DNA from: Bacteroidota bacterium
Lineage (GTDB): Bacteria; Bacteroidota; Ignavibacteria; Kryptoniales; JAKASW01
Direction: 5' to 3'
Length of the DNA: 64,000 nt
Assembly (NCBI GenBank): GCA_021812985.1
Contig: JAKAMG010000019.1
Coordinates: forward strand, 2,295-66,294
A model generated the notes under the pieces. The model searched no databases. It saw nothing but the letters and a program-made list of their open reading frames with translations, and was not told the origin of the DNA. Below, one piece after another: positions 3,656-59,028 of this stretch. The translations under genes were made by a program, and so were the position numbers. Each line of letters begins with the position of its first letter. The stretch's first letter is position 1.

Positions 3656-4230
3656 CAGGTCAGTCCCAGGCTTGAGGCATTTTCCCTTAGAGCGCCGATC
3701 ACAAACGAAATGTGCTCGTCTTCGGGAATGCCAAGTTCCAAAATTCCATTTCTTATGTCGTCGCGATTAACGCTCCTCGCGAACGCCTTGTCTTTGAGCT
3801 TCTTCCTGACTGAGGACACCTCCAGGCCTTCGAGCTTAGTCGGCCTGACGAGGGCAATGGCCACTATGAAACCCGTGAGTTCATCGCACGCGAAGAGACA
3901 TTTCGCCATCTTTGACTCACGCGCGACATTTGTGTATGGGGCATGCCCCATGATCGCCTGCCGCACCGATTCAGGATAGCCTTTCTCAGTAAGTATCTTG
4001 TTCCCCACATACGGGTGCTGATCGGCATTGGGATACATTTCGTAGTCGAAGTCGTGTAAAAGGCCGGCAAGCCCGTAAAGCTCCTCGCTTTCGCCGAATT
4101 TTCTCGCGCAGGCACGCATGGCGGACTCGACCGCCAGGGCATGTTTTCTCAAACTGTCGGTCTTGGTATACTCGTAAAGAAGAGAGAGGGCCTCTTCTCT
4201 AGTAGGTACTTCAGAATGTCCCTGATTCAC
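3655..4230 (-). CDS. HD-domain metal-dependent phosphohydrolase
   Basis: This 191-residue protein has an HD domain: His30 (RKHALAVE), His59-Asp60 (GLLHDFDYEMYP), a further His in the MGHAPYTN region and a later Asp (ACDELTGFI). This arrangement fits small HDIG-type hydrolases annotated as hydrolases of nucleotides or unknown phosphoesters. The substrate is unknown. The downstream gene, a degenerate receiver, overlaps it by one base, so the pair forms a two-gene unit. Confidence 0.8.
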   Translation of the reverse strand: MNQGHSEVPTREEALSLLYEYTKTDSLRKHALAVESAMRACARKFGESEELYGLAGLLHDFDYEMYPNADQHPYVGNKILTEKGYPESVRQAIMGHAPYTNVARESKMAKCLFACDELTGFIVAIALVRPTKLEGLEVSSVRKKLKDKAFARSVNRDDIRNGILELGIPEDEHISFVIGALRENASSLGLT

Positions 4231-4368
4231 GCCAAAAATATATTCCTCGCTCCCTTGAAATGCAATCTTCGCCCAGTCCCAACCCGATCGAGCTGCGAAA
4301 GCGCAACACGCACAGAATTGGCCAAAAATAGTCGGCCGGAAACGTTAAATTGAAAAAAAAGGATCGTG

Positions 4369-5145
4369 ATGATAGAGAAGGTAATGGAGATCGCCAAACA
4401 GGCCGGAAAATTTCTGAAGGACAATGAGGGGAAGATATCAGAAATAAAGGAGAAGGGGTCGTTCACTAATCTCGTGACTAACATCGACAAGGGCTCAGAA
4501 GCGATCATCACGAGTTACATCAAGAAGAACTTCCCGGATCACGCTATCCTCGCTGAGGAGAGCGGGGCGACATCGAACAGCTCGGAATACAAATGGATAA
4601 TAGATCCTCTTGATGGCACGACGAATTTCACGCACGCCTTCCCCGTCTACTGCGTCTCAATCGCCGTCGAGCACAAGGGGGAGGTAGTCGCAGGAGCAGT
4701 TTATGATCCAAATTTTGACGAGCTCTTCTCCGCCGAGAAGGGACAAGGCGCCTACCTGAACGGAAAGAGGCTCAAGGTCACCTCAACTGTCGGTCTGGAG
4801 AAATCCATGCTCGCCACCGGCTTCCCTTACGACGTAAGGGAAAATCCTTTCAACTGCATACAACATTTCGAGGAGTTTCTTGTCAAGGCCCAGGCGGTGC
4901 GCCGGCTCGGCTCCGCGGCGTTGGACATCTGCTATGTCGCCTCAGGAAGGCTGGACGGGTTCTGGGAGGTCAATCTCCATCCCTGGGACACCGCCGCCGC
5001 AGTGCTGATTACGACTGAAGCGGGAGGAAAGGTGACCGGCTTCAATGGCGGCAGATACTCTGTTTATCAGAAGGACATAGTGCTTTCAAACGGCATCATC
5101 CACGACGAGATGCTCGGAGTGATAGGCAGGAACATCAAGGGCTAA
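4369..5145 (+). CDS. Inositol monophosphatase family protein
   Basis: This magnesium-dependent phosphatase of about 258 residues carries all family motifs: EESG near residues 63-66, the metal-binding IDPLDGTTNF near 78-87, and the C-terminal WDTAAAVLITTEAGG. Members hydrolyse inositol-1-phosphate or related sugar phosphates, and in bacteria are often of broad or unknown specificity (SuhB-like). The ATG at 4369 follows an A-rich GGATC stretch; a GTG one codon earlier is also possible. It is one of only two plus-strand genes between 1016 and 45027. Its end overlaps the convergent hypothetical gene by four bases. Confidence 0.9.
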   Translation: MIEKVMEIAKQAGKFLKDNEGKISEIKEKGSFTNLVTNIDKGSEAIITSYIKKNFPDHAILAEESGATSNSSEYKWIIDPLDGTTNFTHAFPVYCVSIAVEHKGEVVAGAVYDPNFDELFSAEKGQGAYLNGKRLKVTSTVGLEKSMLATGFPYDVRENPFNCIQHFEEFLVKAQAVRRLGSAALDICYVASGRLDGFWEVNLHPWDTAAAVLITTEAGGKVTGFNGGRYSVYQKDIVLSNGIIHDEMLGVIGRNIKG

Positions 5146-5546
5146 CCGGGATAGAAACTCCCGTCGAGCTCATAACCGAGTTTCTCGGAAAGTCTGGCAA
5201 AGACTCTCTCCGTGCTGTTGAACGGGACCTGTATCGACCAGTCCCCTTTGCGGTTTTTGGCGACGCTTCCAAAGAGCTGACGATCCTTCTTTTCGGTGAA
5301 ACGCTCCCTGAATATCCACCCGAAATACGCTATTGTGCCTCGCACAAGAAAAGCGGGGACGCGCTCGTCAAAACCCAACACGATTCCGCCGACAGTCGTC
5401 TCGGTGTATCCTGCCTGAGAGAGCCTCTCTTTGAAAATGCCGCTCAAATCTTTTCCGTCGAGGATGAGGTCGTGGACGAACCGCTCGACGTTCCGCCCTT
5501 CGATTATCGCGTCGATAGCTTCGATTACCTGGACCTCATCTTCCAT
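5142..5546 (-). CDS. Hypothetical protein, 134 residues
   Basis: I do not recognise a family. The predicted protein is soluble and acidic, with a helical N-terminal half (EVQVIEAIDAIIEGRNVERFVHDLI) and a mixed half rich in aromatic residues (AYFGWIFRERF, DWSIQVPFNSTERVF). No Cys, signal peptide or membrane segment is seen. It lies just downstream of the peroxiredoxin gene (12-base gap) in the same direction, so co-transcription is likely, and it overlaps the convergent inositol monophosphatase stop. Codon usage resembles the neighbours, which supports a real gene. Confidence 0.65.
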   Translation of the reverse strand: MEDEVQVIEAIDAIIEGRNVERFVHDLILDGKDLSGIFKERLSQAGYTETTVGGIVLGFDERVPAFLVRGTIAYFGWIFRERFTEKKDRQLFGSVAKNRKGDWSIQVPFNSTERVFARLSEKLGYELDGSFYPG

Positions 5547-5558
5547 CCGGGACTTTCC

Positions 5559-6005
5559 CTAAAGAGTCTTGGCATCCTTAGCGGCGCTTACGTGCACGCC
5601 GGGCGAAAACATGTTCTTCGTAACAGAGAGCACCTTCCCGTCTTTATCAATAACGAAAGTGATTCTGTTGGCGATCCTGAAGAGGCTGTTATATGCGCCG
5701 TATAATCGCGACACCGTCCCGTCACAATCTGAAAGGAGATCGAACGGTAGATTGTGCTCCTTCCTGAATCGTTCGTGACTCTCAATGCTGTCTATGCTTA
5801 TCCCAAACACTCTGAGGTTTGAATCCCTCAGTCCCTGAAACTCATCCCTGAAGCCGCAGGCTTCCCGGGTGCAACCGGTTGTGAAATCCTTGGGATAGAA
5901 ATACAAGACGAGCCGGCCTGATTCAAGACTTTCATAGAGATGAAAAGTCCCCCCCGTCGACGGTAGTGAAAAATCGGGGGCTGGTTCACCTTTTTGTAGT
6001 TTCAT
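5559..6005 (-). CDS. Thioredoxin-dependent peroxiredoxin (Bcp/PrxQ type)
   Basis: This 148-residue AhpC/TSA-family peroxidase reduces hydrogen peroxide and organic peroxides. The opening PAPDFSLPSTGG and the active site YPKDFTTGCTREACGF are typical, with peroxidatic Cys45 and a second Cys50 five residues on, the arrangement of Bcp/PrxQ enzymes that form an intramolecular disulfide. The C-terminal part (RITFVIDKDGKV) completes the thioredoxin fold. No signal peptide is present, so it is cytoplasmic and should draw electrons from thioredoxin. Confidence 0.93.
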   Translation of the reverse strand: MKLQKGEPAPDFSLPSTGGTFHLYESLESGRLVLYFYPKDFTTGCTREACGFRDEFQGLRDSNLRVFGISIDSIESHERFRKEHNLPFDLLSDCDGTVSRLYGAYNSLFRIANRITFVIDKDGKVLSVTKNMFSPGVHVSAAKDAKTL

Positions 6006-6080
6006 GAATATATGAACAATGCGCGGCTTGATTTGATTCCGAGCTAAACGTCCTCACCGGATTTCGCGTTAACTGTTGGT

Positions 6081-7283
6081 TCAGCGGGACTTGAGGCTGT
6101 CGAGGGCGACCTTCGCGAGTCTGCAGGCGCGGTCATCCCCGTTCAGTTTGAGTACAGTTTGATAATCCGCCCTCGCCATTTTCCATTCCCCCATCTTCTC
6201 GTAGACCGTCCCCCTGCCGTAGTAGGCCTGGGTAACGAGGACGCTCGGCTCTCCAATCTCGATTGCCTTGCTGTAATCCGCTATGGCAGCGTCGTAGTGA
6301 CTCTTCATTGCGGCAAACGATTCACCTCTGTAGAATCTGATGTAAGCCATGCTCAGGAAACGATCCGGCTCTCCTATAGTATCATGGTTCACGGCCTGAT
6401 CCGCGCACTCGATGACTTTCCCGTACTCATGAAGCTTGTAGTATGCAAAACATAGTGTACGTGTGTAATCGAGGTTTCCAGGATATTTCCGGTGGAGATC
6501 GCTGGCAAGAGCCGCGATCTCATCGAATTTCTTCTCGTCCGTGTAGACGATCTCCGCAAGGAAAGAAGCTGCTTCAGCTTTCGAATGGTTACCGAGTCGT
6601 GACGCCTTCTTCAAATCAGCTATCCCTCCCGCTTCATCGCCTTTGATTCCGAGCAGAAAAGCGACAGGCTTCAGGTACCACGGGAGGTGGGCAGCATAGT
6701 AATCAAACGCACCTATGCCCGAATAAGCATCGTAAAAAGTGGGATCGACTTCCAATGCCTTCTCAAGCATCTTCTTACTCTTGACAGCGTCAGACATCAG
6801 ACCTATCCAATCACTCTTCGCGGCGTCATACCTTGACCTGTAGACAAGAGCGCTGGCGTAGTTGAAGAGGTCTTTGATGTCTTCAGGATTCGTCTTGACT
6901 CTCTGCTTGGATAGCTCGCATCCCTTTTCAACGAGAGGCTTATAAATCTTCCAAATACTGTCCGGCGACTGGAAGGCCTCCTCCATAAGCATCTTGGAGT
7001 ATATTCCACACTTGTAGATGTATCCCTCTGGTCTATCGGGGTACAGGCGAATCATATCTTCAGCAAGTTTAAGAGCTCCGGAAAAATTGTAGTTATAAGT
7101 CTCCGTTGCCGTCGAGTCAAGAAGGGCTTCCATCCTGTCGCCATGCACTTGATTCGCCGTCCCACTCTGGCAAAGGCCGCTAGACACGCCAGCTATGAGG
7201 AGCGCAATTAATACCGCAAATGTGAATCTCAATGCCGTTCCATCAGATCTCGTTGTATCCGAAATAGACCTTCTTGCCGTCAA
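6081..7283 (-). CDS. Exported tetratricopeptide-repeat protein
   Basis: The frame encodes up to 400 residues. A hydrophobic signal segment (FAVLIALLIAGVSSGLC, with a Cys that could be a lipobox but a weak one) is followed by helical repeats; the clearest TPRs are near the C-terminus (residues about 320-390, with AIADYSKAIEIG and YYGRGTVYEKMG). A central stretch (YDAYSGIGAFDYYAAHLPWYLKPV) is also seen in periplasmic TPR proteins of this phylum. The start is uncertain: the ATG-type start overlaps the upstream arsC-like gene by about 40 bases and a TTG inside the signal region is an alternative. It probably acts as a periplasmic scaffold; no function is known. Confidence 0.75.
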   Translation of the reverse strand: MTARRSISDTTRSDGTALRFTFAVLIALLIAGVSSGLCQSGTANQVHGDRMEALLDSTATETYNYNFSGALKLAEDMIRLYPDRPEGYIYKCGIYSKMLMEEAFQSPDSIWKIYKPLVEKGCELSKQRVKTNPEDIKDLFNYASALVYRSRYDAAKSDWIGLMSDAVKSKKMLEKALEVDPTFYDAYSGIGAFDYYAAHLPWYLKPVAFLLGIKGDEAGGIADLKKASRLGNHSKAEAASFLAEIVYTDEKKFDEIAALASDLHRKYPGNLDYTRTLCFAYYKLHEYGKVIECADQAVNHDTIGEPDRFLSMAYIRFYRGESFAAMKSHYDAAIADYSKAIEIGEPSVLVTQAYYGRGTVYEKMGEWKMARADYQTVLKLNGDDRACRLAKVALDSLKSR

Positions 7284-7569
7284 TAATAATCGGGCGTTTT
7301 ATCAGGTTCGGATCTTCCAGCATCATATCTATGAGTTCGGCCTTTGTCACTTTCTTCTGCGCGAGTCCGAGTTCGCGGTACGGTTTGGAGTGTTTGTTTA
7401 TGAAGGCATCGAGATTCTCCTCGTCGATGTTCTTCTCGAGGAATTCCCTGGGGGGAGGATTCTTAACTATGTCCAGCTCGTCGAAGGATATCTTCACCTT
7501 CGTCAGATAGTCCTTCGCTTTACGGCATGTGCCGCAGGTGGATTTCTGATATACAACCACCTTCCTCAT
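7243..7569 (-). CDS. ArsC/Spx-family thioredoxin-fold protein
   Basis: This 108-residue protein has the family's N-terminal active site with Cys12 and Cys15 (KSTCGTCRKAKDYL) and the C-terminal signature LIKRPIIIDGKKVYFGY. A CxxC pair at this position is typical of the Spx/YffB branch rather than classical arsenate reductase, so a redox or regulatory role is at least as likely as arsenate reduction. It overlaps the upstream nucleoside phosphorylase stop by three bases and the downstream TPR frame by about 40 bases. Confidence 0.85.
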   Translation of the reverse strand: MRKVVVYQKSTCGTCRKAKDYLTKVKISFDELDIVKNPPPREFLEKNIDEENLDAFINKHSKPYRELGLAQKKVTKAELIDMMLEDPNLIKRPIIIDGKKVYFGYNEI

Positions 7570-8873
7570 GCTATCCTTTCCTTGATGAGATTTGCCGCCT
7601 TCGGTTTCGCCCCTGAAAATTTATACGCGCCTGCGACCTCTTCCACTGCGAGTCCAGCCGCATCCTTGTCGTTCGCGTGGACGAGCGCGAGCACGTCCCC
7701 CGTGGAGACCTTCTCGCCTATCTTGCTGACCACCGTCACGCCGACAACCGGGTCGACGACGTCGCTAACCTTCCTGCGTCCTCCACCCAACTTCACCACA
7801 GCCATGCCTACGCCAAACGAGTCTATTGCGTGTACGTAGCCTGACTGACGGGCCTGTACCTCAAAGGTAAAACGTGCGGGCGGATATTTTTCGGGGTTCT
7901 CAATAAAACTGGAATCGCCGCCCTGAGCTTTAACCATCTCTATGAACTTCTCGTACGCCGCACCGTTCGAGAGCGCTTGCGTGACGCGTTCCATCGACTT
8001 CTTCATACTGTCGCCACTGCACAGAGAAACCATTTCTGCGGTAAGGGTCTTCGAGAGCTCGATAACGTCATGCGCGTCGGACTCTCCACGGAGAACACGA
8101 ATTGACTCCACGACCTCGCGCCAGTTCCCTGCTTCATGCCCCAGAGGCTGGTTCATGTCCGTCAGATACGCGACGACCTGTTTCCCGTAGAGCTTCCCAA
8201 CTTTGACCATCTTCTTCGCGAGTGCCTTCGCCTCCGAGACAGTCTTCATGAAGGCCCCGTTGCCGACCTTTACGTCCAGAACGAGAGCATCTATACCTTC
8301 CGCGAGCTTCTTGCTCATGATGCTTGAGGTTATGAGAGGTATGGATTCAACAGTCGCAGTCACATCCCGAAGAGCATAGAGCTTTCGGTCAGCAGGGACG
8401 ATCTCGTCGGATTGCGCGCTCATCACGATCCCAGTCGAGGCAAGTGTGCGCTTGTACTCCTCAATAGACAGGCGAGTCCTGAAGCCCGGAATTGACTCGA
8501 GCTTGTCGATTGTTCCGCCCGTGTGCCCAAGTCCCCGTCCCGAGACCATCGGCACCTTTACCCCGCATGCGGCGGCGAGGGGGGCGAGTATTAGGGAAAT
8601 CTTGTCTCCGACACCCCCTGTCGAATGCTTGTCCGCCTTGCAGCCCGGAATCGCGCTTAGATCGATGACGATACCGGTCCCCATCATCGACTGCGTGAAA
8701 TTCAATATCTCTTCGTCGCTCATCCCGGAGAAATAGACCGCCATCAGGAATGAAGACATCTGGTAGTCGGGAACATCTCCGGATGTATATGAGCTAATCA
8801 GGAGTCCGATCTCTTCCCTGGAGAGGGTTCCGCCATCGCGCTTCTTGCGTATGATTTCGTACGGAGTCAGCAT
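7566..8873 (-). CDS. Pyrimidine-nucleoside phosphorylase
   Basis: This 435-residue enzyme cleaves thymidine and probably uridine with phosphate to base and (deoxy)ribose-1-phosphate in nucleoside salvage. The signature KHSTGGVGD near residues 80-90 and SGRGLGHTGGTIDKLESIPG near 110-130 bind phosphate and substrate. The N-terminal helical domain (YEIIRKKRDGGTLS) and the C-terminal domain end (residues about 340-435) are complete. Length and sequence are closer to the Bacillus Pdp type than to E. coli DeoA. It forms a coupled run with the Nudix gene upstream (one-base overlap) and the ArsC/Spx gene downstream. Confidence 0.94.
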   Translation of the reverse strand: MLTPYEIIRKKRDGGTLSREEIGLLISSYTSGDVPDYQMSSFLMAVYFSGMSDEEILNFTQSMMGTGIVIDLSAIPGCKADKHSTGGVGDKISLILAPLAAACGVKVPMVSGRGLGHTGGTIDKLESIPGFRTRLSIEEYKRTLASTGIVMSAQSDEIVPADRKLYALRDVTATVESIPLITSSIMSKKLAEGIDALVLDVKVGNGAFMKTVSEAKALAKKMVKVGKLYGKQVVAYLTDMNQPLGHEAGNWREVVESIRVLRGESDAHDVIELSKTLTAEMVSLCSGDSMKKSMERVTQALSNGAAYEKFIEMVKAQGGDSSFIENPEKYPPARFTFEVQARQSGYVHAIDSFGVGMAVVKLGGGRRKVSDVVDPVVGVTVVSKIGEKVSTGDVLALVHANDKDAAGLAVEEVAGAYKFSGAKPKAANLIKERIA

Positions 8874-49362: not shown

Positions 49363-50295
49363 TTGCCTGAAGCACTAAACAAGTCCGGTTCATCGTCGAA
49401 GAAAAGCGGGGCCGGCAGCAGCGATATTCCCCACAAAGTCTTCACACTGTTCCTGATCATGATTGGGCTTGTTACAGCCGTAACGATATGGGCTCGAAAC
49501 TACACATACTACCTCACCCCCTTGCAGGACAGACCAACGCTTGCTCGCTACGATTCCCTCCGCCCGTCGGGGATTGAGAGTCACGGCTACGGAATAATCG
49601 GAACGGCGATGATTTTCGTAGGCGTCGCGATATATTCCGGGCGCAAGAGGCTAAGGAGACTCTCCAATTTCGGAAAGATACGGGACTTCCTCGACATTCA
49701 TATATTCCTCTGTCTTTTGGGACCGATACTCGTACTGTACCATACCACCTTTATGTTCGGCGGGATCGCGGGGGCGGGATTCTGGTGCATGACGGCGGTC
49801 GTGCTCAGCGGATTCGTCGGTCGGTATTTCTACAAGTTCATCCCAAAGAACATTCACGGCGGTGAGTTGACGGCCAAGGACCTTGAAGGCGAACGGTCCG
49901 AATTGCTCGAAAGGCTGAGAACAAACTTCAAGCTCGACGAGAAGACGCTGGGGATTATCGATCGCATGGGTCAAATCGAGTTCGACGCGGCGAAAGCTGG
50001 AATTCTTCAGCTCATCTGGGTCCTCGCAAGGATTGACCTGATGCACAGGAGGAATAGCAGAAGACTGAAATCAATCCTGCGCACTCAGGCTGTACCGGAG
50101 TCATATATAAATGAGGCCGCAAGGTTAGCCAACCGCAGAATTGCCCTTGGTCAGCGAATTCTTGTCCTCGAAAAACTCCGCCAGATATTTCATTACTGGC
50201 ACGTAATTCACCTCCCCTTCTCACTTGTCGTCCTCGTGATCCTTATCGTGCATGTGGGCGTGGCCTTCGCCTTTGGCTATACTTGGATTTTTTAG
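49363..50295 (+). CDS. Membrane protein with b-type haem-like histidines, first gene of the cytochrome cluster
   Basis: The product is 310 residues (TTG start at 49363; ribosome site weak). It has about six membrane helices and a long cytoplasmic helical segment (residues about 160-240). Histidines that could bind b-haem lie within or near membrane helices: FLDIHIFLCLL, ILVLYHTTFMFGG near residue 120-130, and FHYWHVIHLPFSLVVLVILIVHVGVAFAFGYTW in the C-terminal part. This spacing suits a quinol-oxidising cytochrome-b-like subunit that would pass electrons to the multihaem cytochromes encoded just downstream. I recognise no named family, so the function is inference from motifs and context. Confidence 0.7.
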   Translation: MPEALNKSGSSSKKSGAGSSDIPHKVFTLFLIMIGLVTAVTIWARNYTYYLTPLQDRPTLARYDSLRPSGIESHGYGIIGTAMIFVGVAIYSGRKRLRRLSNFGKIRDFLDIHIFLCLLGPILVLYHTTFMFGGIAGAGFWCMTAVVLSGFVGRYFYKFIPKNIHGGELTAKDLEGERSELLERLRTNFKLDEKTLGIIDRMGQIEFDAAKAGILQLIWVLARIDLMHRRNSRRLKSILRTQAVPESYINEAARLANRRIALGQRILVLEKLRQIFHYWHVIHLPFSLVVLVILIVHVGVAFAFGYTWIF

Positions 50296-50397
50296 CGTCT
50301 GTTCATTATAATGTGCAATCGCATATGAGCACCAACCTTACCAGCACAGAGTCTCCATCATCGCAGAGGTCACTGAGGGGCTGATTTTATAAAGTGT

Positions 50398-50432
50398 TGA
50401 CAGCCCGGACCGGGTTTATGACCTGACTGTCA
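50398..50432. promoter_or_regulatory. Nested inverted repeats upstream of the 20-haem cytochrome gene
   Basis: TGACAG (50398-50403) is mirrored by CTGTCA (50427-50432), and between them CCCGG-A-CCGGG (50404-50414) forms a second dyad. A TTGACA matches a -35 hexamer, but no fitting -10 is seen at 17 bases. It may be an operator or an mRNA hairpin in the 143-base gap between the b-haem gene and the first cytochrome. Confidence 0.35.
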
Positions 50433-50516
50433 TTTCTCTTGCGGTTTTTACAGTTCTGGAATTTCAGGAGATTTCTTGTCGATTCTTTTTGTGTGTTTTA
50501 TGAGAAGAACCGTCTG

Positions 50517-52178
50517 ATGCGGCCTTCCAATATCAGGTTTCGCTTTGCCAACCTGGCTCTGGCCATGATTGCATTTTTTTTTGCGATTGGCACTGCCTCT
50601 GCCCAGTTATCGCCCGGCCCGCTGTCTCACTGGCACTCCAACCTCGAAGGCATTACTAACTGCACCACATGCCACTCGATCGGCAAGCTTATCTCAAACG
50701 TCAAATGCCTTTCCTGCCACAAGGAGATTCAGACCCGCGTCGACAAAGGGATCGGCTACCATGCGACCATCAAATCAAAGGAATGCGCGGGATGCCATCA
50801 GGAGCACCTCGGCAAAAACTACGAGATAGTCAGGTTTGATACGTCTTCATTCGATCATTCGAGCATGGGCTTCTCGCTCACCGGTAAGCACAAGGAAATC
50901 GGGTGCAGAAGCTGTCACAACCCGTCGAAAATTTCCGATCAGGATGTCAAAAAGCTTCCCGCCGACCAGCTTAACGTGACGTATCTCGGTCTTTCACCAA
51001 GTTGTTCCTCGTGCCATGAAGACGTTCACAAAGGACAGTTCAGCCAGTCCTGCTCATCGTGCCATGATACGTTCAAATGGAAACCTGCCGCCAATTTCAA
51101 CCATGACAGCACCCGCTACCCCCTCACGGGGAGCCACAAGACTGTAGGGTGCTACGACTGCCATAACCAGAAGATGAGCGACGGGAAGACGGTGAAATAC
51201 ACCGGCCTCGAGTTTTCGAGCTGCGGCTCATGCCACACTGATCCCCATAAAGGCGCTTTTAAACAGGCGTGCGCCTCCTGTCACAACACGGACTCGTTCT
51301 TCTCGGTTGCATCCGGAGAATTCGATCATTCCAAAACCGAGTTCCCGCTGCTGGGCAAGCATGCGGGACTGAAGTGCGCAAAGTGCCACGCGGATAGCCC
51401 AACGAAGCGGAACATCAGCGGAGGTTTAGGGTTCCGAATCGCAAAGTTCAAAGTCTGTTCCGACTGCCATTCCGACGCGCACGGTGGACAGTTTGACAGG
51501 ATTGCGGGAGGAGACAGGTGCGAGAAATGCCATAACGTTTATGGGTTCACGCCTGCGACGTTCACGATTGCGGATCACCAGAAGTCTTCCTTCATGCTGG
51601 ACGGAGCACATCTTGCCGTGGCTTGCACCAACTGCCACTTGGCGGATAAAATAGCTGCGAAGTCGACACGGCAATTCATCTGGTCAGGCAAGATCACCTG
51701 CCTGACATGCCACGCGAATGTTCACGGGGAACAGTTCTCGCGGATCATGACAAATGGGTGCGTGACCTGCCATACCACGGATTCATGGCAGAAGCTCGTC
51801 TTTTCTCATGACAAAACGAAATTTCCTCTGAAGGGAAAACATGCAACTATCGCCTGCTCTGATTGTCACAAGAGACCGAAAGGCACAACTCTCCCGGTAC
51901 GGTACGCGGGCCTTGACACGCACTGTTATTCATGCCACGATGACGCTCACGCCGGACAATTCGAAGTTGATGGAACGACGCATTGCAGTTCCTGCCATAC
52001 CGCCGACACATGGAAGAAGACACTGTTCGACCACGATACGCAGTCGGATTTTCCGCTGACCGGTAAGCACATCGGTGTCCCTTGTGAAAAGTGCCATCCA
52101 ACCGTGGAAATGAATGGCAAAGAGGTCGTCAAGTACATAAATATTGGAACGAGATGCATCGATTGCCATTCAAACTAA
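50517..52178 (+). CDS. Multihaem cytochrome c with 20 CXXCH motifs
   Basis: About 553 residues from the ATG at 50517, whose signal peptide ends ATASAQ-like (IGTASAQ). I count 20 CXXCH sites, so up to 20 covalently bound haems, spread over the whole mature chain. Six times the module F-x-H-[DS]..[FY]-x-L-x-G-x-H....C-x-x-C-H recurs; between modules are CSSCH/CHTDxHxGQF-type pairs. Distal histidines that could serve as sixth ligands are frequent. The protein should be periplasmic or surface-exposed and act as an electron wire. It lies between the b-haem membrane gene and a second cytochrome gene whose start overlaps its end by 25 bases. Confidence 0.92.
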   Translation: MRPSNIRFRFANLALAMIAFFFAIGTASAQLSPGPLSHWHSNLEGITNCTTCHSIGKLISNVKCLSCHKEIQTRVDKGIGYHATIKSKECAGCHQEHLGKNYEIVRFDTSSFDHSSMGFSLTGKHKEIGCRSCHNPSKISDQDVKKLPADQLNVTYLGLSPSCSSCHEDVHKGQFSQSCSSCHDTFKWKPAANFNHDSTRYPLTGSHKTVGCYDCHNQKMSDGKTVKYTGLEFSSCGSCHTDPHKGAFKQACASCHNTDSFFSVASGEFDHSKTEFPLLGKHAGLKCAKCHADSPTKRNISGGLGFRIAKFKVCSDCHSDAHGGQFDRIAGGDRCEKCHNVYGFTPATFTIADHQKSSFMLDGAHLAVACTNCHLADKIAAKSTRQFIWSGKITCLTCHANVHGEQFSRIMTNGCVTCHTTDSWQKLVFSHDKTKFPLKGKHATIACSDCHKRPKGTTLPVRYAGLDTHCYSCHDDAHAGQFEVDGTTHCSSCHTADTWKKTLFDHDTQSDFPLTGKHIGVPCEKCHPTVEMNGKEVVKYINIGTRCIDCHSN

Positions 52179-53023
52179 AACGGTTTCTCAAAGGACTCAT
52201 CGGAGTAGGCCTAAGGGGGACCAGTTTGATTCTCCTGATCAGTTGGATCAACAATGCGGCGTTCGCGCAGGCTTCCCCGCACGGGCCGATCACATTCAAA
52301 TGCACGGCCTGTCATACGACAGAAAGCTGGAAAGAACTCGCCTCGCCGATGGAATTCGATCATTCGGACACCGGTTTCAGGCTGACAGGGCAGCACAAGA
52401 ATGTAGCGTGCGAGGCCTGCCATGCAGGCTTCAAATTCACTAATACGCCACAGGACTGCTACTCCTGCCATAGAAGAGACTACGATGCGGCGGTCACGAT
52501 CAATCACAGGCTCGCTGGGTTCGGTACCGACTGTTCCCAATGCCATCGCTCGAACGCGTCCTCATGGATCTCGAGCTTCGACCACGACAGGACTCAATTC
52601 CCTACTCGCGGGGCGCACGAGGCCGTACCGTGCATCAGCTGTCACGTAGGCGGTCGATATCGTGGGACGCCGAGCGAATGCGTCGCCTGCCATGAAAATG
52701 TCTATGTAACGGCCCAGAACCCCAATCATATAGCTGCGGGGTTCAACACTGAGTGCGCCGTGTGCCATAGAGCACTGACCTGGCAGCCGGCGGCCTTCTA
52801 CCCGCACCCCTACTTCCCCATTCACGCCGGCGACAGACACAGCCCGGGCGTTTGGAATGCGTGCACTGATTGCCACGCAAGCCAGCCTAACTACTCAACT
52901 TTTGCCTGCACTAATTGTCACGAACACACGGCGGCGCGAACAAATCCCAGGCATGCCGACGTCGGAGGCTACGTGTATGAAAGTAGCGCGTGCTATCGAT
53001 GCCACCCCACAGGTGGAGGATAA
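52154..53023 (+). CDS. Decahaem cytochrome c
   Basis: The product is about 289 residues from the ATG at 52154 (signal peptide SLILLISWINNAAFAQA). It contains ten CXXCH sites. Two copies of the F-D-H-[DS]..F...G.H....C..CH module seen in the 20-haem protein are present (residues about 60-85 and 135-160), plus two shortened forms (NHRLAGFGTDCSQCH, NHIAAGFNTECAVCH). Its size and haem number equal those of the MtrA/PioA decahaems that run through outer-membrane porins, though overall similarity could not be tested. The gene overlaps the previous cytochrome and its stop is adjacent to the barrel start, so these three are translationally coupled. Confidence 0.9.
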   Translation: MHRLPFKLKRFLKGLIGVGLRGTSLILLISWINNAAFAQASPHGPITFKCTACHTTESWKELASPMEFDHSDTGFRLTGQHKNVACEACHAGFKFTNTPQDCYSCHRRDYDAAVTINHRLAGFGTDCSQCHRSNASSWISSFDHDRTQFPTRGAHEAVPCISCHVGGRYRGTPSECVACHENVYVTAQNPNHIAAGFNTECAVCHRALTWQPAAFYPHPYFPIHAGDRHSPGVWNACTDCHASQPNYSTFACTNCHEHTAARTNPRHADVGGYVYESSACYRCHPTGGG

Positions 53024-54625
53024 TTGGGCAGGACGGGAGCTATAATCCTCGCTTTCTTCTCGTTGGCCATTCATGCGAAGGCACAACAGAAGCAGGAGGC
53101 GACGGCAAAGATTTCTTACATCGCCGGGCCAACCGTTTATTTGACAGCCGGTGGAATCGACGGCGTGGCACCGGGTGATTCGGCCCGTGTCTATCGGGAA
53201 GGCGCTTTAGTTGGATCGCTAATCGTCACCGCGATCGCGGACAGTTCAAGTGCCGCTCGCGCACTCAACGGCTTGCAGGGATTCAGGATCGGCGATACTG
53301 TCCAGATTGTCCTCTCGAATCGTCTTCCTGCACCGCTTAGCACTCAAGTCGTAAGCAAAGGAGGATCTAGCAGCACGAGCGAGCGGTCAGTGAGCGGGGA
53401 ATCTTTCCCCCGGGCGAACGTACTCTCCGGCCGTGTAGGGCTTCAATACGACATGATTGCGGCCGAGGATTCGAAACTTAACCTCAGTCAGCCAGGCGCG
53501 CTCGTCCAAATCGGTATAAGCAATCTCTTCGGAGCCGGGATGTCTTTCAGACTCTATGGAATGAGCTTCCTTGACGGTAACGGCGTTTACGCGCAATACG
53601 GAAACAGGACCGGACTTAGCAACAACCTTTACAGCGCGACGCTCACGGGCGAGACTGCCGGCTCCGCATTGGGATACAGTATCGGGAGACAGAACTCTCA
53701 ATTCGTAAGCGGGATGGGGACCTTCGATGGCGGGCAAGTCTATTTCCGGATAAACAGGTTTACGATCGGTGCGCTCGGCGGGGCCTCGGCGACCATCCCG
53801 TCTTCAACCCTTGGCTACTCCGGGACAAAGACAGCAGCGTTTATCAACTATCATTCCGGTGCCGACGTATTTCACCAGTTTGACGGAACCGCTGCCTACG
53901 GCCTTCAGATGGTCGGGGGCAAGCTTGACAGAAATTATCTCTACCTTCAGAACTCCCTGTCCCTCGGCTCGAACCTGAACTTCTACGAGAGCACGGAGAT
54001 AGACTTGAGCAGAGAATCAAACGGAACCAGAGTCGGCGGACTGAACTTTTCGAACACTTTCTTTTCAATGAACTATTACCCGACGAGCTGGCTCTTTGCG
54101 AATCTCGGATATGACGCATACCGTACCGTCTACCTTTTTCAGACTATGAAGGCTATACCGGACAGCCTGATCGATCCAAATGTCTCGCAGGGATTACGGG
54201 CAAGCATCTCCGCGCACGTTACCGCTTCACTCACCCTCACCGCCAACGGAAGCTACAGGACGCGTAGAGATTACGCCAGGAGCGAGCACACGCTCGGCGG
54301 CTCCGTGAGAACGAGCAACCTACTCGATCTCGGCATCGGTGCAAGCGTCAGGTATCTCACAATGACGGGCGTCTACTCGATTGCGAACGACGTCAACGTT
54401 GAAATCGACCGTACATTCTTCGACGCGCTCGACGTCACCCTCAGCTACGACTCGTACAGCGTCTCCGTCTCCACGGTTGAGCAGACATACAAGACACAGA
54501 CCATTTCAGCTTTTATCGATTACGACTTTAGCCAAAAATGGTACTCGACGATCGGCCTCGATGACGGAATAGATCCATCGATGAACAGCTTCAGGGTTTT
54601 CGCCGAAATAGGTTTTAGATTCTGA
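53024..54625 (+). CDS. Outer-membrane beta-barrel protein of the cytochrome cluster
   Basis: The product is 533 residues with a TTG start that directly follows the previous stop and has GGTGGAGG upstream. A signal peptide (IILAFFSLAIHAKAQ) precedes a small beta-domain (about residues 25-95, ATAKISYIAGPTVYLTAGG...) and about 380 residues of alternating polar/aromatic strands ending in ...FAEIGFRF, the terminal Phe of BAM-assembled barrels. Barrel size corresponds to roughly 18-22 strands. Placed between the decahaem cytochrome and an oxidoreductase gene, it probably forms the sheath through which a cytochrome passes electrons, as MtrB does, although it is shorter than MtrB (about 700 residues). 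Confidence 0.8.
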   Translation: MGRTGAIILAFFSLAIHAKAQQKQEATAKISYIAGPTVYLTAGGIDGVAPGDSARVYREGALVGSLIVTAIADSSSAARALNGLQGFRIGDTVQIVLSNRLPAPLSTQVVSKGGSSSTSERSVSGESFPRANVLSGRVGLQYDMIAAEDSKLNLSQPGALVQIGISNLFGAGMSFRLYGMSFLDGNGVYAQYGNRTGLSNNLYSATLTGETAGSALGYSIGRQNSQFVSGMGTFDGGQVYFRINRFTIGALGGASATIPSSTLGYSGTKTAAFINYHSGADVFHQFDGTAAYGLQMVGGKLDRNYLYLQNSLSLGSNLNFYESTEIDLSRESNGTRVGGLNFSNTFFSMNYYPTSWLFANLGYDAYRTVYLFQTMKAIPDSLIDPNVSQGLRASISAHVTASLTLTANGSYRTRRDYARSEHTLGGSVRTSNLLDLGIGASVRYLTMTGVYSIANDVNVEIDRTFFDALDVTLSYDSYSVSVSTVEQTYKTQTISAFIDYDFSQKWYSTIGLDDGIDPSMNSFRVFAEIGFRF

Positions 54626-54636
54626 CGGACAATTTC

Positions 54637-55956
54637 ATGAACCAGTCTTTGATAACAGTTGTAGTTACCGCACTCCTCATATTCCTGGCGGCTTTTCCTT
54701 ACTTCCGCCGTCTGAAGAAGAAAGAGGAAAAGGCGAAGAAGAAATTCCAGGAAATGAAGATCAGCGGATTGCACGAAGCTGTTACGGTTCACCCGCACAT
54801 CGACGTAACCACATGCATAGGGTGCGGAGGATGCGTCAGAGCCTGTCCAGAAGGGGACGTTCTCGCCGTTATCGAGGGTAAGGCGACGCTGATACACGGC
54901 GCGAAATGTGTCGGACACGGGCTTTGCGCCGAAGCGTGCCCCGTAGGAGCGATAGAACTCCTTATGGCCAAACCAGGGCGGAGCGCAGACCTTCCCGCCC
55001 TCGATGAGCACTATGAAACAAACGTCAAGGGAGTTTTCATAATTGGAGAACTTGGCGGGATAGGGCTCATCAAGAATGCGGTTTCGCAGGGCAAGGCAGC
55101 AATTTCCTACATTGCAGAACAGCCGAAGGCCGGAGTCGCGGATTTCGATGTGGCCATTGTCGGTGCCGGACCAGCCGGACTGGCGGCAGGACTAAGCGCG
55201 AAGGCGAGCGGACTCAGTCACGTCATACTCGAGCAAAGCGACATCGGCGGCTCAATACTTCACTACCCGCGCGCCAAGGTCGTGATGACGTCCCCCGTCG
55301 AGCTACCGTTATGGGGAAAGTTGAAGCTCACAGACGTGAAGAAGGAAGTTCTCCTCGAAGCGTGGCAGAATATCATCGCTAAGGCTAAGCTCGACATAAG
55401 GACAAACGAAAAGGTGCTGGATGTGCAGAAGACAGACGACGTATTTACTCTGACAACTTCCGCCTCTACGCTAACGGCGCGTTTCGTCCTCCTCGCACTT
55501 GGTCGGCGGGGAACGCCGAAGAAACTCGGCGTCCCGGGAGAGGACTTATCTAAAGTGATGTATCGCCTCATCGACACTTCGAATTATCAGCACGCTAATG
55601 TACTTGTGGTAGGAGGAGGCGACTCGGCAGTCGAAGCCGCGGTAGGACTCTCGCTTCAAAAGAGCAACAATGTAACCCTTTCGTACAGGCGCGGTGAGTT
55701 CACGCGACTCAAGGAGCGCAACCTCGGTAATATCAAAAACATAATGTCAGGCAGGAAGGTGCGCGTCGTCTTCAATTCAGAGGTGAAAGAGATACGCGAA
55801 ATGAGTGTAGTCGTCTCATCACCTGATGGTGACGTCGAACTTCCGAACGATTATGTCTTCATATTTGCCGGAGGTGAGCTACCCTTCGAACTCTTGAAAA
55901 GGATTGGGATCCGCACTCAAATGCAGGAGATTGCAGATGGACCTGTTTCCGCCTGA
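54637..55956 (+). CDS. Membrane-anchored ferredoxin-type NAD(P)/FAD oxidoreductase
   Basis: The product is 439 residues. A single N-terminal helix (SLITVVVTALLIFLAAFPYF) anchors it, followed by a Lys-rich linker. A ferredoxin domain follows: site one is a full CIGCGGCVRACP (about residue 60-71); site two reads CVGHGLCAEACP, with His where the second Cys should be, so it may hold a His-ligated 4Fe-4S or a 3Fe-4S cluster. Then a pyridine-nucleotide-disulfide-type FAD/NAD fold with GAGPAGLAAG (about 175) and GGGDSAVEAA (about 326). No redox CxxC is seen. It is the last gene of the cytochrome cluster and could move electrons between NAD(P)H and the membrane. Confidence 0.87.
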   Translation: MNQSLITVVVTALLIFLAAFPYFRRLKKKEEKAKKKFQEMKISGLHEAVTVHPHIDVTTCIGCGGCVRACPEGDVLAVIEGKATLIHGAKCVGHGLCAEACPVGAIELLMAKPGRSADLPALDEHYETNVKGVFIIGELGGIGLIKNAVSQGKAAISYIAEQPKAGVADFDVAIVGAGPAGLAAGLSAKASGLSHVILEQSDIGGSILHYPRAKVVMTSPVELPLWGKLKLTDVKKEVLLEAWQNIIAKAKLDIRTNEKVLDVQKTDDVFTLTTSASTLTARFVLLALGRRGTPKKLGVPGEDLSKVMYRLIDTSNYQHANVLVVGGGDSAVEAAVGLSLQKSNNVTLSYRRGEFTRLKERNLGNIKNIMSGRKVRVVFNSEVKEIREMSVVVSSPDGDVELPNDYVFIFAGGELPFELLKRIGIRTQMQEIADGPVSA

Positions 55957-57973: not shown

Positions 57974-58477
57974 ATGAAAAGATTTTTAGGAGTCGCGGCG
58001 ATCGTGGCTACGATGGTTGCGAGTCCGGCCTTTGCGGGGAATACAACGACTGCAACGGCGTCGGTGAATCTCACCATCAACTCGGCTGTAACAGTTAACA
58101 CGGTCAGGGCAGCCATTAATCTCGGGTCGATATACCAGGGAACGACATCGGCGGCAGTCGACCCCGCCACGGGCGGTGCAAACGCAGCGGCGTTCAGCCT
58201 TGCGGGCCCTAACTCTTTGCCAGTGACCTTTAGCTGGCCTTCGTCAATAAATATTACGAACGGCACAACTACGGCTACTTTCGCGGCTGGCGTAGCTGGA
58301 AACACCGCCAATACACAGACCGGTGCAACCAGCCTGACGAGTGGCGGCCCTGCAGTGACTACCGCCGCTTCCGGTTCCCCGGTTTACTACTTTTGGGCGG
58401 GCGGTACCGCTACAATCCCCAGCAACGCAACTGCGGGCGCTTACTCAGGCAGCGTCACGATTACAATCACGTACTAA
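57974..58477 (+). CDS. DUF4402-type secreted surface protein
   Basis: The product is 167 residues with a signal peptide (FLGVAAIVATMVASPAFAG) and a mature chain of Thr-, Ala- and Gly-rich beta-structure ending in VTITITY. The ATG at 57974 follows a clear GGAGGG. The order (ATASVNLTI near the N-terminus, ending FWAGGTATIPSNATAGAYSGSVTITITY) fits the DUF4402 family, which is found in pilus-like and surface proteins of Bacteroidetes and Proteobacteria. It is probably exported and may polymerise or decorate a fibre. The next gene is a diverged paralogue. Confidence 0.8.
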   Translation: MKRFLGVAAIVATMVASPAFAGNTTTATASVNLTINSAVTVNTVRAAINLGSIYQGTTSAAVDPATGGANAAAFSLAGPNSLPVTFSWPSSINITNGTTTATFAAGVAGNTANTQTGATSLTSGGPAVTTAASGSPVYYFWAGGTATIPSNATAGAYSGSVTITITY

Positions 58478-58489
58478 GCAATAAGCCTT

Positions 58490-58531
58490 TGATGAGGCAG
58501 GCGGCTCACGTGACACCTGCCTCATTTTTTT
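58490..58531 (+). terminator. Intrinsic terminator between the two DUF4402 genes
   Basis: TGAGGCAGG pairs with CCTGCCTCA (nine pairs) around a 14-base loop, followed by TTTTTTT. It lies right after the first DUF4402 gene, and the second gene starts at 58537, only about five bases beyond the T run. Confidence 0.85.
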
Positions 58532-58536
58532 GTTTT

Positions 58537-59028
58537 ATGACTTTCAGAGTCCTTATCGTCGGGATTCTCCTCCTTATTCTCTCATCGGCGTGTAACGCCC
58601 AACAGCACATCGTGACAGCTACGGCAACAGTCGACATGACTATGAAACCCAACATGGGACTCGCGGCAGCACGGAACATGTCCATGGGAACCGTCACGCA
58701 GGGGCTGACGTCAATTGATGTCAATCCGATAACCGGGGGGAACGCGGCGGCATATTTTGCGTTCTCAGCACCGCCGAATACACCTGTGACGGTCAGCTAC
58801 GCCTTCACTTCCCTGTCAAACGGCCCTAGCACCATAGATTTCAACGGCCTCCTTGCTGGAAGCGAGGCCGATAACCAGACGAAGTCTTCCATCATTCTTA
58901 ACGGGTCTACGATTGTGACCAATTCCGACGGAGGATTTCATTTCTGGGCTGGAGGTTCGGCGAAGCTCTCCCGGTCACAACAGCTTGGAATCTATACCGG
59001 AACGTTTGTTCTGACCATAACCTACTAG
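58537..59028 (+). CDS. Second DUF4402-type secreted protein (paralogue)
   Basis: The product is 163 residues from the ATG at 58537 with a signal peptide (VLIVGILLLILSSACNAQ) and the same ending as its neighbour (FHFWAGGSAKLSRSQQLGIYTGTFVLTITY). It shares the order ATATVDMTMKPNMGLAAARNMSMGTVTQG with the ATASVNLTI...NLGSIYQG of the first protein, so the two arose by duplication. There is no ribosome site and no room for a promoter, because a terminator T run ends about five bases upstream; expression must come from readthrough or a start further downstream. Its role may be that of a minor subunit. Confidence 0.75.
   Translation: MTFRVLIVGILLLILSSACNAQQHIVTATATVDMTMKPNMGLAAARNMSMGTVTQGLTSIDVNPITGGNAAAYFAFSAPPNTPVTVSYAFTSLSNGPSTIDFNGLLAGSEADNQTKSSIILNGSTIVTNSDGGFHFWAGGSAKLSRSQQLGIYTGTFVLTITY

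Follow-up and report, generated by a model that had tools for sequence, protein, structure and literature searches.

A conserved five-gene cluster of Bacteroidota predicted to encode a PCC3-like electron conduit, probably with a dedicated NAD(P)H entry module

Positions 49363-55956 of a 64,000-nucleotide stretch of DNA from a bacterium of the class Ignavibacteria (the window, meaning the whole stretch that was analysed) carry five genes, which raise the question of whether they specify a path for electrons across both membranes and, if so, which donor feeds it. An initial sequence-only reading proposed a porin-cytochrome complex linked to NAD(P)H by a ferredoxin oxidoreductase and to the quinone pool by a b-haem protein. 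The analysis makes it probable, and far from certain, that the cluster encodes a trans-envelope conduit resembling the predicted PCC3 complexes with an NAD(P)H entry module of its own; from the data below we infer its assembly, the identity of the cytochrome within the barrel, the NAD(P)H partner, the outward direction and the external substrate.

An ORF check confirmed the proposed order and strand: cytb/IMP (49363..50295), MHC20 (50439..52178), MHC10 (52091..53023), the gene of an outer-membrane beta-barrel (53024..54625) and FdNAD (54637..55956) are all encoded on the + strand. The coupled or abutting starts claimed for the cluster were found for the four downstream genes, which overlap (the start of MHC10 with the end of MHC20), abut or are separated by an 11-nt gap, but not for the first gene, which lies approximately 140 nt upstream of the listed TTG start of MHC20 or 220 nt upstream of ATG 50517. 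The latter, which begins a signal peptide for Sec export, is the likelier start of MHC20, and the listed start of MHC10 at 52091 is probably too early, since ATG 52154 yields an ordinary signal peptide. A scan for strong promoters and terminators detected none between the cluster genes, though it yielded no more sites than did shuffled sequences.

The MHC20 and MHC10 ORFs contain exactly 20 and exactly 10 CXXCH motifs, as originally counted, where approximately 0.2 and 0.1, respectively, would be expected by chance from their own Cys and His content. Since exactly 20 further histidines of MHC20 outside these motifs recur in 90 % or more of 37 sequences, the counts are as expected if every haem were bis-His coordinated and the protein had no catalytic site. 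MHC10 has, besides its ten motifs, 11 other histidines that are kept in all 8 decahaem homologues aligned. A role of the cytochromes as nitrite reductases or other enzymes was rejected, with a candidate second histidine available for all haems and no catalytic family scoring above its cut-off; instead of soluble nitrite-reductase-like proteins, the possibility raised against the first reading, they look like all-bis-His wires. The AlphaFold2 model of MHC20 (pLDDT 76) had a low pTM of 0.40 and gave no fold match in Foldseek.

The two cytochromes differ in the constancy of their length. The first carries 20 haems at 39 of 44 loci, with 23 found in Emticicia and at two others, whereas the second has from 10 to 66, so that the first is the fixed-length part of the system and the second the free-ended, variable part. 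The MHC10 family has conserved caps, an N-terminal SPHG..CxxCH and a C-terminal GYxYxSxACYxCHP, with a varying number of repeats between them. The pairing of a wire fixed at 20 haems with one that varies from 10 to 66 amounts to a testable claim on envelope spacing. Neither a lipobox nor any known signal for surface sorting was noticed in MHC10, and its exposure at the cell surface is for this reason an assumption. Other multihaem genes occur in the same genome. An orphan pair of an 18-haem cytochrome and a second barrel lies at a contig end (locus L094, positions 326-3402 of contig C11); it is nearest to the 'reductase second' clade (see below) of the same genus, and no 20-haem, b-haem or reductase genes of its own are present upstream. 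At positions 3977-7975 of locus L127 (contig C2) adjacent genes encode 6- and 8-haem proteins with similar N-termini.

The barrel ORF contains no cysteine and ends with Phe. In the AlphaFold2 model (pLDDT 80) residues 133-532 form 22 strands, preceded by a small beta domain at residues 25-96; the structure runs used alignments without the plasmid-derived Emticicia row. Foldseek matched it to large barrels of the outer membrane, among them ushers, AlgE, Occ porins and a siderophore receptor; the matches listed included neither a specific relative nor MtrB, and no NCBIfam model matched. The terminal-Phe barrel first proposed is thus predicted to be a wide one, and the concern that it might be too narrow or not a barrel did not materialise.

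The product of cytb/IMP (310 aa, five TM helices) is predicted to be a transmembrane di-haem b protein on the strength of four invariant paired histidines, H113/H127 on TM3 and H283/H297 on TM5. Among 34 aligned homologues these residues, W279 and an SGxxG motif (149-153) are invariant, while the corresponding tryptophan at the TM3 site is present in most and replaced by F in the window protein. The HX13H spacing, which occurs twice, would place one haem near each membrane face, and by the positive-inside rule H113/H283 would be the pair close to the cytoplasm and H127/H297 the one close to the periplasm. The TM4-TM5 loop of approximately 115 residues is predicted to be cytoplasmic. No Pfam or NCBIfam model matched above threshold, a profile search of the PDB returned chance matches only, and Ferric_reduct is absent from the Pfam families listed for the 34 homologues. 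The protein shares with the NADPH oxidase/ferric reductase fold two HX13H histidine pairs, which here would stack two b-haems and be fed by a cytoplasmic NAD(P)H-FAD protein; it differs in showing no sequence match to that family, and the flavoprotein here is a separate chain of the YpdA/TrxR type with Fe-S clusters.

This separate chain, FdNAD, has a single N-terminal TM anchor (residues 5-23) followed by Lys and Arg, from which a cytoplasmic location of the remaining domains is predicted. Its ferredoxin domain carries seven Fe-S cysteines in two motifs, C60/63/66/70 and C91-x2-H94-x2-C97-x3-C101, and its C-terminal part is a Pyr_redox, YpdA/thioredoxin-reductase-type FAD/NAD(P)H domain devoid of the CXXC redox dithiol, so the ferredoxin oxidoreductase first assigned here was borne out. 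The second motif (C-x2-H-x2-C-x3-CP, residues 90-102, window 54904-54942) has in place of one Cys a His that is invariant in 36 sequences, and the cluster bound there may be 3Fe-4S or a His-ligated 4Fe-4S. FdNAD is the single full-length match to its own family profile in the genome. The nearest solved structures are Bdr and TrxR; a stand-alone YpdA/Bdr bacillithiol disulfide reductase was nevertheless rejected, the match to the YpdA equivalog reaching 186 bits against a cut-off of 340, the domain being fused to a TM helix and a ferredoxin, and the gene being part of a cluster.

The cluster is conserved well beyond the window. Matches to cytb/IMP were obtained in 54 of the 197 genomes of the class (E <= 0.001), approximately 46 of them full-length (E below 1e-40), and relatives occur in further families of the phylum. 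The complete five-gene set, its order conserved, was found in dozens of genomes spanning classes of the Bacteroidota, and also in Zixibacteria, where one contig carries it with a 20/22-haem pair; a KSB1 contig has the set with broken frames. Chance adjacency of the genes was rejected, their order being conserved across phyla, and the five-gene set is real and old. The possibility that the cluster would not be conserved in other FCB genomes, which would have told against the first reading, was not realised. There are two main gene orders, with the reductase last, as in the window, or second, and in one small clade the reductase is divergent; mapped on the tree of the first and fifth proteins the orders require 2 changes, the minimum, compared with 17.7 in shuffles. 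One genus carries the window-type cluster in some genomes (the window and L057) and the distant 'reductase second' type in others (L072, L076, L079 and L090), which suggests either transfer or an old duplication followed by loss. In the cultured isolate Emticicia oligotrophica DSM 17448 the whole set, with 23 and 40 haems, is located on plasmid pEMTOL02, immediately following a ResB/CcsA cytochrome c assembly gene; FdNAD is EMTOL_RS21095 there. On the opposite strand near these conduit genes (locus L095, 5656-7514) there is a group encoding YceI, a DUF5777 barrel and a Rieske protein.

Judged by component kinds, haem numbers and inner-membrane signature as given in published descriptions, the set most resembles the PCC3 complexes predicted in 2017 in Proteobacteria (He et al. 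2017, PMC5566968) and taken up in PMC10734462 (Hoover et al. 2023), PMC8788666 and PMC12442390, the function of which has not been demonstrated. PCC3 comprises a porin, a periplasmic cytochrome of 21-27 haems, an extracellular cytochrome of 10-35 haems or more and an inner-membrane protein (PMC5566968). That protein, like cytb/IMP, has approximately 300 aa, five TM helices, SGxxG on TM4 and WX3HX13H on TM3 and TM5. The long periplasmic cytochrome is likewise shared, its 20 haems here being slightly under the published range. The second cytochrome is of variable haem number here too, its position at the cell surface being putative. The 22 predicted strands contrast with a published maximum of 42 for PCC3 barrels, a difference rather than an exclusion. 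The phylum also differs, and the PCC3 clusters were described as four genes lacking a reductase, with quinone exchange proposed (PMC5566968), whereas FdNAD is a conserved fifth gene here. PCC4 likewise combines a porin and multihaem cytochromes with a 5-TM membrane protein bearing the same motif, and its cluster too encodes further redox proteins, but its periplasmic cytochromes number three (4, 5 and 10 haems) and an extracellular cytochrome is lacking (PMC5566968).

The better-characterised conduits are more distant. MtrCAB, PioAB and MtoAB have the same functional layout of a decahaem wire with a barrel, but the wire has 20 haems here and 10 there, and no CymA/MtoC-type quinol oxidase is encoded in the cluster. 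MHC20 matched the DmsE/MtrA family model (TIGR03508) with E 9e-17 and 61 bits, under the cut-off of 192; the MtrB/PioB model (TIGR03509) had no match in the genome, the same search being empty in every control genome as well. Geobacter OmbB-OmaB-OmcB (Pcc) combines an 8-haem periplasmic with a 12-haem outer cytochrome as against 20 and 10. The composition is thus unlike the Mtr, Pio and Omb/Oma/Omc sets, as first noted and as the haem counts and the TIGR03508 score bear out, but the first comparison overlooked PCC3 and PCC4, in which both the layout of four parts and the signature of the membrane protein recur (PMC5566968). No main text describing the five-gene set in Bacteroidota was found in the open-access literature, which is weak evidence of novelty. 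Extracellular electron transfer by related bacteria is discussed in passages of the papers on Melioribacter roseus (PMC5492636), bioanode Ignavibacteria (PMC7399161), Chocolate Pots (PMC6137239) and MHCscan (PMC11475568), and those passages contain no account of such a set. The route appears to be largely undescribed and a variant of the PCC3 kind.

The component predictions and the conserved order support the porin-cytochrome complex spanning both membranes, with a b-haem protein in the inner one, that had been suspected. In the proposed chain electrons would pass from NAD(P)H to FAD and the two Fe-S clusters of FdNAD at the cytoplasmic face, from FdNAD to the inner (H113/H283) and then to the outer b-haem (H127/H297) of the five-helix cytb/IMP, and from there to the fixed-length 20-haem periplasmic wire. 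MHC20 would deliver them through the 22-strand barrel to the variable-length cytochrome at the surface, with 10 haems in this case, which may pass them on to a metal oxide, humics, an electrode, a partner cell or another acceptor outside the cell.

The choice of NAD(P)H as the inside partner draws on distant homologues of cytb/IMP (profile E 1e-16 to 1e-22) encoded on plasmids of Alteromonas, Methylophaga, Variovorax, Bradyrhizobium, Qipengyuania and Spirosoma. In all six loci examined the gene for the homologue (approximately 250 aa) lies between a 2Fe-2S/FAD-annotated gene and one for a 7-haem cytochrome, and all four reductases scanned have FAD_binding_6, NAD_binding_1 and Fer2 domains. The 7-haem cytochromes of similar plasmid loci with DUF1622 are relatives of the N-terminal half of MHC20 (29 % over 275 aa). 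These modules have neither a barrel nor a second cytochrome, and the fold of their reductase is unrelated to that of FdNAD, so that two NAD(P)H flavo-Fe-S reductase folds fill the same slot beside homologous membrane proteins. Mainly for this reason, which is drawn from sequence comparison, we favour NAD(P)H over the quinone route proposed for PCC3. Counting against NAD(P)H entry, other Bacteroidota encode shorter relatives of cytb/IMP (186-192 aa) together with 10- or 14-haem cytochromes, and no reductase gene adjoins these. Two further loci deserve mention. On an Alteromonas macleodii plasmid (L100) the short module of reductase, membrane protein and 7-haem cytochrome directly adjoins NiFe-hydrogenase genes. 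In locus L123 (5116-12696) a distant cytb/IMP relative is flanked by a cNMP-binding/4Fe-4S protein and a 10-haem protein; an FHA-Pyr_redox protein is encoded close by, possibly making another reductase combination.

The alternative that survives best, although unlikely, is a quinone-linked PCC3 of Bacteroidota, in which cytb/IMP would exchange electrons with menaquinol for anaerobic respiration to extracellular acceptors, FdNAD being separate or auxiliary. The four component kinds and the signature (WX3HX13H twice, SGxxG) are indeed those of PCC3 and PCC4, for which quinone exchange was proposed (PMC5566968). However, almost all well-sampled loci keep FdNAD inside the cluster, at fixed positions specific to each clade, membrane proteins homologous to cytb/IMP have NAD(P)H reductases as partners elsewhere, and no recognised quinone-site family was found in the conserved regions. 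Accordingly, of the two links first proposed, the one to NAD(P)H through a cytoplasmic-face oxidoreductase gained from the presence of FdNAD in a cluster whose order recurs in other FCB genomes, while the b-haem protein stood as such, by its four invariant paired histidines, but lost the quinone pool as its best-supported partner, given the NAD(P)H flavo-Fe-S reductases that accompany its homologues.

Outward flow is favoured on the basis of the NAD(P)H potential and the membrane potential. Inward transfer to NAD(P)+ is energetically unfavourable on both counts, opposing the redox potential of most extracellular donors as well as the membrane potential, and this makes it decidedly unlikely that the chain takes up electrons from Fe(II), minerals or a partner cell to reduce NAD(P)+ or ferredoxin. 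PCC3 has been proposed in Fe(II) oxidisers (PMC5566968), and one PCC3 inner-membrane gene of Sideroxydans CL21 is up-regulated under iron oxidation, but both PCC3 clusters of Sideroxydans ES-1 are down-regulated on Fe(II). Very improbable is a periplasmic or cell-surface reductase detoxifying metals, oxyanions or copper without supporting growth, for although related short plasmid modules adjoin copper/heavy-metal genes and weak, below-cut-off matches to Geobacter ExtN/ExtO selenite-operon models were obtained, a barrel and two large bis-His wires far exceed the needs of a periplasmic reductase and no metal-resistance genes adjoin the window cluster.

To our knowledge the quinone pool is the electron source of the well-studied outer-membrane conduits of Gram-negative bacteria. 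If a conduit had an NAD(P)H entry of its own, it would release reducing power directly, and its energetics and role would have to be modelled as redox balance instead of proton-motive respiration. More tentatively, and with somewhat less than even confidence, the clusters may represent a widespread quinone-independent form of extracellular electron transfer in FCB bacteria, spread in part by plasmids, with oxidation of NAD(P)H on the cytoplasmic side feeding a dedicated NOX-like di-haem protein, the fixed 20-haem wire and the variable surface wire; on that reading the inner-membrane proteins of PCC3 and PCC4 may be NAD(P)H-linked too. The variant adds a soluble-side enzyme open to expression and assay to a kind of complex that has stood without demonstrated function since 2017, and the plasmid location of the whole set in the sequenced isolate E. 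oligotrophica DSM 17448 makes curing or deletion feasible. Downstream of the cluster, at window positions 57974-59028, two small secreted proteins are encoded in tandem, the first of which matches DUF4402.
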